A stretch of DNA of 64,000 nt from Lepisosteus oculatus. Its lineage: Eukaryota; Chordata; Actinopteri; Semionotiformes; Lepisosteidae. Within the stretch, counting starts at the first letter, position 1. Each line of letters opens with the position of its first letter. Below, in pieces: positions 17,601-63,316 of this stretch. The notes below the pieces were generated by a model. The model made no database searches, had not been told where the DNA came from, and saw nothing but the letters and a program-made list of their open reading frames with translations. The stretch spans positions 15,865,817 through 15,929,816 of the forward strand of contig NC_090699.1 of the NCBI RefSeq assembly GCF_040954835.1, given 5' to 3'. The position numbers and the translations under genes were made by a program.

Positions 17601-20600
17601 ACACACCAGTGTCCGTGCGACGGGGGCCGTGTGCGCCCAAGAGATTCTTACCTAGGTGGGTTGCTGGGGCCAGGAAAGAGGAGTGAGGTCCCGAGGGGGG
17701 AACAAACGGAGAGGAGCTGGGGTGAACTGCACCTGTCGAGACAGAGGCCTGGGTGAAGGAGGTCAAGAGAAGGAACCGACGGCCGACTCCCTGTTGATCT
17801 GTGCAGACAGATCCATGTGGAAAAGGTCGCTCTCCAACGGGCAGGAGGAGCAAAAAGGAAAGGGGGACAGCCGGACCCAGACTCACCAGCCGCAGAGAAG
17901 AGAGAGGCGGGCCGTGCCAGCTGGTGAGAGGTGGGCAGAGAGCTTGCCCCGGGCATCCTGGCCAGCAGGTCAGTGCGGAAGTCCAGCTTGTGAGGGTCCC
18001 CCTGCATCATCTGAGCAGCAGAGAGGACAGTGAGCAAACCAACAGAGTGTACAGCACAGAAGCGACAGGGGACCGGGGAGGCACTGACTGCTCTCTCAGA
18101 GCCCGATTCTCATCACAGTTAATCACTAACCCAGTTTACAGTGAACTCTGTCCAGTCCTGTACAGCCTGCAGTGTCTCAGACTGCTCTGTCAGAGTCTGA
18201 TTATTATCACAGTTCATACCTAATCAAGAGCACAGTGAAGTTGGTCTAGTTCAGCCTGGAGAGTCTCACACTGCTCTGTGGGAATCTCTTAACAACAATC
18301 CTAAACTTCTTACTACATGTTCGAAAGCAGTAGGGTCGTTAGACTGAAACTGGTACATTTTGCTGTTAATCTGGGACATAATGCACAGGATAAGAGTAGC
18401 ATATAAAACTACAAATCTTTGCAGATTTGCAAATATTCCTCTTAATTCAAGTATCTTCTCTTCATAATGCCATTACCTTGACTTTCTCCTGGTGTCTCAG
18501 GATCATCCAAGCTACTCTTACATGCATTGCACACCACTTGCCCGGCTTCTAGAGAGAGCATAAGAGGGGTCAATACAGACACCCTGACTGACTGGACACT
18601 CCAGTACATTAACACTGCACTGAGAGAGAGGGGTTAATACAGACACACTGACTGGACACTACAGTAAATTAACACTGCACTGAGAGAGAGGGGTTAATAC
18701 AGACACACTGACTGACTGGACACTCCAGTACATTAACACTGCACTGAGAGAGAGGGGTTAATACAGACACACTGACTGGACACTCCAGTACATTAACACC
18801 GCACTGAGAGAGAGGGGTTCATACAGACACACTGACTGAGAGAGGGGTTAATACAGACACACTGACTGATAAACATCAGAGACAGAGCAATATGCCGACA
18901 GATTGTGATGTCAGAAGTAGATTAAGCAAAAAGAGTCAGAGCAATTGCAGGTTCTTACATTGTTGACTCGCAGTGAAGTCCTGAAGTGATCAGTCAGCTG
19001 AAAAAGACAGTGAGAATCAGAACACTGTTACAGCTCACTGAGCCCAGCAAATTCATTAGGTCAATTAGCTACTGGCAACCTGTGATCTCAACAAGCCATA
19101 ATCAGAAGGAAACACTGACAGCATGTCCTACAATTAACAATAATCACACACCTGTTCGCTGTGCACAGCCAGAGCCCAATCACAGACTGCACAAACACAC
19201 ACACCTGTTCACTGTGCACAACCAGAGCCCGATCACAGACTGCACAAACACACACCTGTTCGCTGTGCACAGCCAGAGCCCGATCACAGACTGCACAAAC
19301 ACACACACCTGTTCACTGTGCACAACCAGAGCCTGATCACAGACTGCACAAACACACACACCTGTTCACTGTGCACAACCAGAGCCTGATCACAGACTGC
19401 ACAAACACACACACCTGTTCACTGTGCACAACCAGAGCCTGATCACAGACTGCACAAACACACACCTGTTCACTGTGCACAACCAGAGCCTGATCACAGA
19501 CTGTGCGCACACACACACCTGTTCACCGTGCACAACCAGAGCCTGATCACAGACTGCACAAACACACACCTATTCACTGTGCACAACCAGAGCCTGATCA
19601 CAGACTGCACAAACACACACCTGTTCACTGTGCACAACCAGAGCCTGATCACATACTGCACAAACACACACACACCTGTTCACTGTGCACAGCCAGAGCC
19701 TGATCACAGACTGCACAAACACACACACACCTGTTCACTGTGCACAGCCAGAGCCTGATCACAGACTGCACACACACACACACCTGTTCACTGTGCACCA
19801 ACAGTGACTGAGGACATACACACCAGAAACACTGTCACTCACCCGGGGGTCTTTGGGCTGCAGGGCGTGAGGCACCGCCCCTAGTCGAGCTGCCATCTCT
19901 GGATTGGTAGCCTGGAAGCAGAGAGACTGTCACTCATGGAACAGCTAGGGAGTGGGTAGTGAGCAGTGATCTATCTAGGTCTGAGTGCGACAACTAGAGA
20001 ACCCAGGTCTGAGTTTTGGCACAGGGGCAGTGTGAAAGAACAAGTGTCCGAGACAGTGCCATCCTTTTGCTGGAAGGGTGAGGGCGATATAGAACAGTGT
20101 GGGCTGCAGTGTGAAAGGTCAAAGGTCAGCGAGTCCTCACCTTTGGCTGGAAGGCTCCCTGCAGTGAGCTGAATGGTCCAGGCAGTACAGGCTGGATCCC
20201 AGGCACAGAGTGGGGGTAGTTGGGGTAGAACTGGAAGAGAGGACACAAGCAGGATCTCACAGGGAGGAACAGAAAAAACACAGAGCTGAGCAGGCAAATG
20301 GACATGGACACAGAAACACAGATAGAGGCCCCACTCACACTGTGTCGGTACAGCCCCTCCATCTTCCCTGGGAATTTGTCGAACTGAGAAAGAGAAAGAG
20401 AAGGAAGGACTGAGAGGCTGAACGCTACAAGCGGGAGACGAACGAAGACGGAGAAACTGGGCGGGTGAGGGCCTGCTTCCCTTGTCCCACTGGGTACCAG
20501 GAGCTGCTGGGAGTGGTCAGCTCTAAAGCCCAGAGAAGAGGCTGGCTCTGGGAGAGCAGGCGAGTTGTTCACTGACGGAGCCCCAGGACCCTCTCCAGCA

Positions 20601-63316: not shown

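Follow-up and report, generated by a model that had tools for sequence, protein, structure and literature searches.

The question raised by this locus is why tandem arrays of a single minisatellite should end at the 3' splice sites of three genes, always in sense to the gene, and whether they spread preferentially into such places or only survive there. The stretch of DNA analysed, here called the window, comprises 64 kb (C4:15865817-15929816; GC 0.56) of the 1.2-Gb genome of Lepisosteus oculatus. From the tandem-repeat listing and array comparison, nine tandem arrays of one 60/64-bp unit family were found in the window. A sequence-only reading had described eight arrays of one family at acceptors, all in the same orientation relative to their genes, and had likened the unit to a portable 3' splice site. 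All eight were present, each of them intronic, sense to its gene and ending 3-33 nt before the exon that follows the acceptor.

The gene called FBRS by that reading carries two arrays on the minus strand. The first (18563..18869) ends 14 nt from the first exon base (acceptor AG 18550-18549, exon from 18548), and the second (21552..21973) ends 33 nt from it (acceptor AG 21520-21519, exon from 21518). On the plus strand, PHKG2 harbors arrays at 41216..41417 (acceptor AG 41427-41428; 11 nt) and 43220..43757 (acceptor AG 43768-43769; 12 nt), the latter filling nearly the whole of its last intron. The longest array in the window, with about 22 units (53019..54454, +), precedes the first coding exon of a gene that the same reading named RNF40 (acceptor AG 54481-54482; 28 nt). 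Three more plus-strand arrays follow: 58345..58730, nearly a whole intron with its donor GT at 58335 (acceptor AG 58739-58740; 10 nt), 59787..60221, also nearly a whole intron (acceptor AG 60225-60226; 5 nt), and 60455..60628, most of an intron (acceptor AG 60630-60631; 3 nt). Array sequence therefore makes up most of the intron in four introns, at 43.2, 58.3, 59.8, and 60.5 kb. PHKG2 alone was confirmed by a database match, FBRS and RNF40 being the earlier labels; two exons joined by hand gave a PDB match of 76 residues to phosphorylase kinase gamma, and the exon after the 41216-41417 array, joined to the next exon, matched that protein with no interruption. The ninth array (46056..46649, -) is intergenic and does not end at an acceptor, being located by eye between the PHKG2 stop codon (~44028) and an apparent minus-strand coding end near 47050. 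At its 3' end, CCCCTCTCTC is followed by AAAAAGAAAG, with no acceptor there.

Beyond the window, the 13-mer CCCTCTCTCTCAG from the unit end had 4794 + 5190 occurrences genome-wide, compared with 81 + 50 for a reversed control; it was rejected as a sampling probe because it was too redundant. The main sample was instead drawn with a gene-blind pattern for one unit variant, and arrays were marked by the first 100 of 433 matches. An array was considered docked when, by eye, an AG lay within ~50 nt of its end and the open frame behind that AG was taken for an exon. This resulted in 33 docked arrays, all at the acceptor of a sense exon, among 46 further arrays with a readable 3' flank. Forty-four of the 46 carry a variant match; the second L056 array, a neighbour, and L084, from the 13-mer list, were both docked, and the strict count without them is 31/44. 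The counts leave out L001-L007 (single 13-mer matches), L008 and L039 (the same C1 array as L040), L009-L038 (redundant, two arrays), and L048, L099, and the first L085 array, whose 3' ends are cut.

The exons behind the docked arrays belong to unrelated genes. Pfam matches at E 0.01 or better were obtained for 17 of the 33, with L043, L065, and L069 below the curated cut-off; the families include SWIRM-associated, coronin DUF1899, vault, trypsin, matrixin, MT-A70, septin, and bZIP. PDB matches for three more exons (MAPK7, SLC12A4/6, and adenylate cyclase 5) bring the supported exons to 20/33, whereas the PDB search returned nothing at E 0.1 for the L073 exon and weak matches only for those of L090 (0.013) and L061 (0.035, 0.096). 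In a mirror control, antisense ORFs at the array 5' end gave 0/26 Pfam matches, the longest ORF being taken and 26 of 42 listed ORFs covered, while the sense frames were hand-picked. An exon finder built on codon-usage and splice-site tables is a weak instrument and was used as support only. Without acceptor credit, scores above 6 were reached at 13/65 sense 3' ends, 1/41 antisense 5' ends, and 34/490 random flank positions, the last including real exons. At L070, the array lies directly before what by eye appears to be a tRNA-Ile gene or pseudogene.

The two orientations were not equally common in this sample, in agreement with the sequence-only reading: 33 arrays were docked and sense, and three (L064, L072, and L081) were antisense to a gene by eye and exon finder, L081 being the only one with Pfam support, and that weak (PA28, E 0.0094, below the cut-off). 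The remaining ten had no evident gene, no assignable orientation, or a sense exon further off (L052, L053, and L068), so that 13/46 sampled arrays do not end at an acceptor. The enrichment at acceptors that had been expected genome-wide was clear in the main sample and weaker on other contigs. There, 18 loci marked by rarer variants gave 19 readable arrays, of which seven were clearly docked (L085, CLP1; L090; L092, zinc fingers; L093; L100, trypsin; L101; L102, C2) and nine at most, when the doubtful L086 and L097 are added to the count. Ten of the 19 were undocked, three of them being copies of a single C14 segment. Four of the seven exons queried from this set matched Pfam, L102 below the cut-off.

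Docking might simply reflect short, minisatellite-rich introns, in which everything is near an acceptor. The window does contain 169 tandem-repeat rows in 64 kb, and some introns are nearly all array. As a comparison family we used a 98-bp dispersed minisatellite, with window copies at 24214-24599 (-), 39022-39639 (+), and 18099-18279 (-); L109 was left out of its set because it runs into a 60/64-bp array. With the limit set at 90 nt from a sense acceptor, five of its 12 arrays qualify, which is in line with chance; at 50 nt only 2/12 do, against 33/46 for the 60/64-bp family (Fisher p 0.0008). With the 17 acceptors at 41-60.7 kb, random placement and orientation would put the ends of about 1.5% of arrays no more than 35 nt from an acceptor on the same strand, whereas 6/6 plus-strand arrays in this interval do. 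Together with the empty mirror control, these results already disfavour the chance explanation, which we consider extremely unlikely. The 98-bp minisatellite was also tried as a second tightly docked family and dropped for its two dockings at ~50 nt.

The anatomy of the junctions was then compared between the two ends of the arrays. Among 71 readable 3' ends, 38 lay at the unit's pyrimidine-tract/AG phase (p 7e-10 against an expected 13/64), in contrast to 18/60 of the 5' starts (p 0.08); the difference between the ends was significant (p 0.008), with related copies taken singly in these counts (e.g., L050-L053, L094-L096). A pattern for the junction matched 437 times genome-wide against 249 for a control pattern, a noisy result taken as supportive only, the control matches listed being mostly one recurring substitution.

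Read from its letters, the unit carries a branch-point-like motif, a pyrimidine tract, and an AG. Branch-point context had been proposed within the unit, and a candidate does lie there, but GTTAAT is the poorer choice because several AGs separate it from the acceptor; TATTAAC/TATGAAC appears to be the better candidate. The idea of a portable 3' splice site agrees with this unit content and with a terminal pyrimidine tract that exceeds the inner ones in length (median 15 vs 11; 25 arrays whose ends fit the pattern, L086 and L097 among them; Wilcoxon p 7e-5). It does not fit the tails before the exon, which by eye differ from the unit in 22/33 docked arrays, such as CTCTCTGCAG in L074 and TTTCTTCCCTAG in L060, and also in L043 and L082. 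Because of these 22 tails, the arrays are better explained by a join inside the native pyrimidine tract than by the arrival of a complete splice site, although the 11/33 unit-like tails are what whole-site delivery would predict and count against a join within the tract. The supposition that the terminal AG is always unit-derived was dropped on the same grounds. The longer terminal tract may itself be native, and no mark of selection.

Acceptors are not the sole landing places, since some undocked arrays end at (AAT)n tracts or next to repeat-like sequence. In two undocked arrays, L063 and one of L088, the junction with an (AAT)n tract lies close to the TTAAT phase. Undocked ends at L063, L088, and L098 adjoin repeat-like sequence in which CTGGACACTCCA occurs, as it does in the unit.

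Selective survival would account for part of this pattern. Under it, arrays land anywhere and in either orientation but persist only where they are in sense and joined to an acceptor, the others making harmful cryptic splice sites. The sense bias (33 against 3) is what it predicts, and so is a terminal module with a longer tract and, under a stricter definition, more frequent TATTAAC (18/25 vs 376/768 inner modules, p 0.026); a looser comparison showed little difference (18/34 vs 295/674). However, it does not predict one favoured 3' phase beside a 5' phase that is not significant, nor the regional subfamilies described below. The intergenic array of the window likewise ends at the pyrimidine phase, and the 98-bp minisatellite, also intronic and from this region, lacks tight docking. 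We regard selective survival as unlikely. Of the two alternatives that had been offered, preferential spread is the one that the regional subfamilies and the phase-specific 3' junction tend to favour.

Tandem arrays of the one unit occur at many separate loci, dozens of them in unrelated genes, and by extrapolation probably number in the hundreds. Their distribution is clustered. The first 100 of 433 variant matches fell at five loci on C1-C3 (233 Mb) and at 36 loci on C4 between 1.4 and 15.4 Mb; the first 100 of 437 junction-pattern matches gave three on C1, none on C2, 29 on C3 (all at 6.1-12.4 Mb), and 68 on C4. Further groups of arrays were found on C6, C7, C14, and C30. Along C4, the difference between arrays rose with distance (Mantel r 0.52, 0/2000 permutations, 47 arrays; r 0.51 without duplicated genes, 43 arrays), the mean profile distance being 0.9-1.7 in bins below 2 Mb and 3.8-4.6 beyond. 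The 64-bp form was present in 0/23 arrays at C4 1.4-6.0 Mb and in 27/27 at C4 9.7-15.9 Mb, and the C6 arrays have their own unit variant. The 98-bp minisatellite is a second case of local spread, all 36 exact matches to its 30-nt core lying on C4 at 12.2-15.9 Mb. Since likeness falls with distance, and both the 64-bp form and the 98-bp core are bound to their regions, dispersal appears to be mainly local. Satellite DNA subfamilies are shaped by concerted evolution and share with these arrays the local homogenisation that yields regional subfamilies; they form one block, however, whereas the units here lie in separate introns of unrelated genes across megabases.

Insertion of the repeat at 3' splice sites by a mobile element, or by an RNA-mediated process (reverse splicing and reverse transcription, the route suggested for introners), would explain the exact placement at intron ends and the many arrays in unrelated genes. 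The flanks speak against it. In the first array set (48 five-prime and 55 three-prime flanks of 200 nt) no common element was found, and matches were confined to the duplicated gene group L050-L053, a protease-exon pair, and two short weak ones. With flanks that share no sequence, no longer element seems to have been copied along with the arrays. A shared body around the repeat, as expected of a transposable element, was seen only in the C14 copies. On C14, the edge of an array-bearing segment has at least 25 copies (up to 2 mismatches), and L094 and L095, members of the C14 group L094-L097, are 99.6% identical over 2 kb although 11.8 Mb apart. As a mobile vehicle, the copies L094-L097 were set aside because all 25 are confined to C14, which resembles local amplification. 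The drop in likeness with chromosomal distance is also unlike dispersal from a master copy, and we consider insertion of this kind quite unlikely.

Introners resemble the present family in being dispersed repeats associated with the splice sites of many genes. They make new introns, though, and the available part of PMC9860276 reports no pattern of introner gain in vertebrates, while the family here occupies intron ends alone. Its donor side is unrelated between loci, with unrelated 5' flanks and 5' ends that vary in phase, rather than one element bearing both splice sites.

The closest known system is CeRep25B of Caenorhabditis elegans, which, as summarised in PMC4039745, is clustered on specific chromosomes, lies 75% in introns, and is associated with alternative splicing. 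Both families are short, dispersed, chromosome-clustered, and mostly intronic, so the kind as such is already known from CeRep25B (PMC4039745). The present family occupies many loci, clusters on chromosomes, and is mostly intronic, the last point resting on the 33/46 docked arrays and being lower on other contigs (7-9/19). The CeRep25B unit, by contrast, is 24 bp and near-palindromic (PMC4039745), unlike the 60/64-bp unit, and docking at acceptors, fixed sense orientation, and megabase subfamilies are described for the family here and not in the available part of PMC4039745. Among titles and abstract beginnings in open-licence PubMed Central, we recognised no earlier description of acceptor-docked minisatellites, and likewise none of fixed orientation or of megabase subfamilies.

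The arrays could also be functional splicing or expression elements, selected near acceptors. Docking and the stronger terminal module are compatible with a function, as is the association of the C. elegans intronic minisatellite with multiple alternative splicing, as given in the available part of PMC4039745. A unit subfamily that follows the region across unrelated genes speaks against a function, and we find such a role very unlikely.

The reading that we put forward, with about as much confidence as doubt, is that the minisatellite spreads in cis by DNA copying joined at acceptor pyrimidine tracts, and is tolerated as splicing still works. A dispersed unit of 60 or 64 bp, with TATTAAC/TATGAAC, a pyrimidine tract, and an AG at its end, would be copied as DNA into introns of nearby genes, possibly by ectopic gene conversion or template switching. 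The 3' junction would arise inside the (CT)-rich tract of a pre-existing acceptor, where target and unit share sequence, and the 5' junction would be unconstrained. Joining at the acceptor tract would set both the sense orientation and the position at the intron end, and the arrays would grow afterwards through ordinary repeat expansion. Donors would be mostly local, and megabase neighbourhoods would therefore have their own subfamilies. Introns would tolerate the array because the acceptor adjacent to the exon remains the strongest.

Some other repeats in the window are made of splice-junction sequence. The PHKG2 intron that follows the exon ending ACCCCTCCATCA contains, at 39875-41059, a minisatellite of the exon end plus the 5' splice site; its donor-spanning 20-mer has 23 further copies (up to 3 substitutions) within 3 kb downstream and none elsewhere in the window. 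A second donor-derived minisatellite, at 56156-56715, comprises seven copies of TACTGGGGCCAG|GTACTGAC after its source exon. Such repeats were found at 2/16 donors tested. Upstream of 42373 there is one duplicate of an acceptor with its exon start (tgccctgtgcag|CTGGGCGT), lying upstream of the original. In humans, the interferon-inducible gene 6-16 (IFI6) reportedly carries a minisatellite derived from its splice donor, likewise a tandem repeat made from splice-site sequence; it differs in being a single locus, at a donor site, with no dispersed family. The two donor-derived minisatellites suggest, as part of the more tentative proposal that follows, that splice junctions here may seed tandem repeats more generally.

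The wider proposal is more tentative, and we hold it with more reserve than conviction: acceptor pyrimidine tracts may serve as docking sites for ectopic copying, by which a selfish, cis-spreading minisatellite occupies intron ends, moving in sense between unrelated genes within a few megabases. If this is true, splice signals would be hot spots of non-allelic exchange besides being RNA signals, and one repeat would overwrite the introns of unrelated genes while splicing stays intact. The regional subfamilies would then map local, homology-guided copying between genes. These natural introns, in which tandem 3' splice-site modules number from a few to several dozen, would offer a direct test bed for the choice of the last AG.
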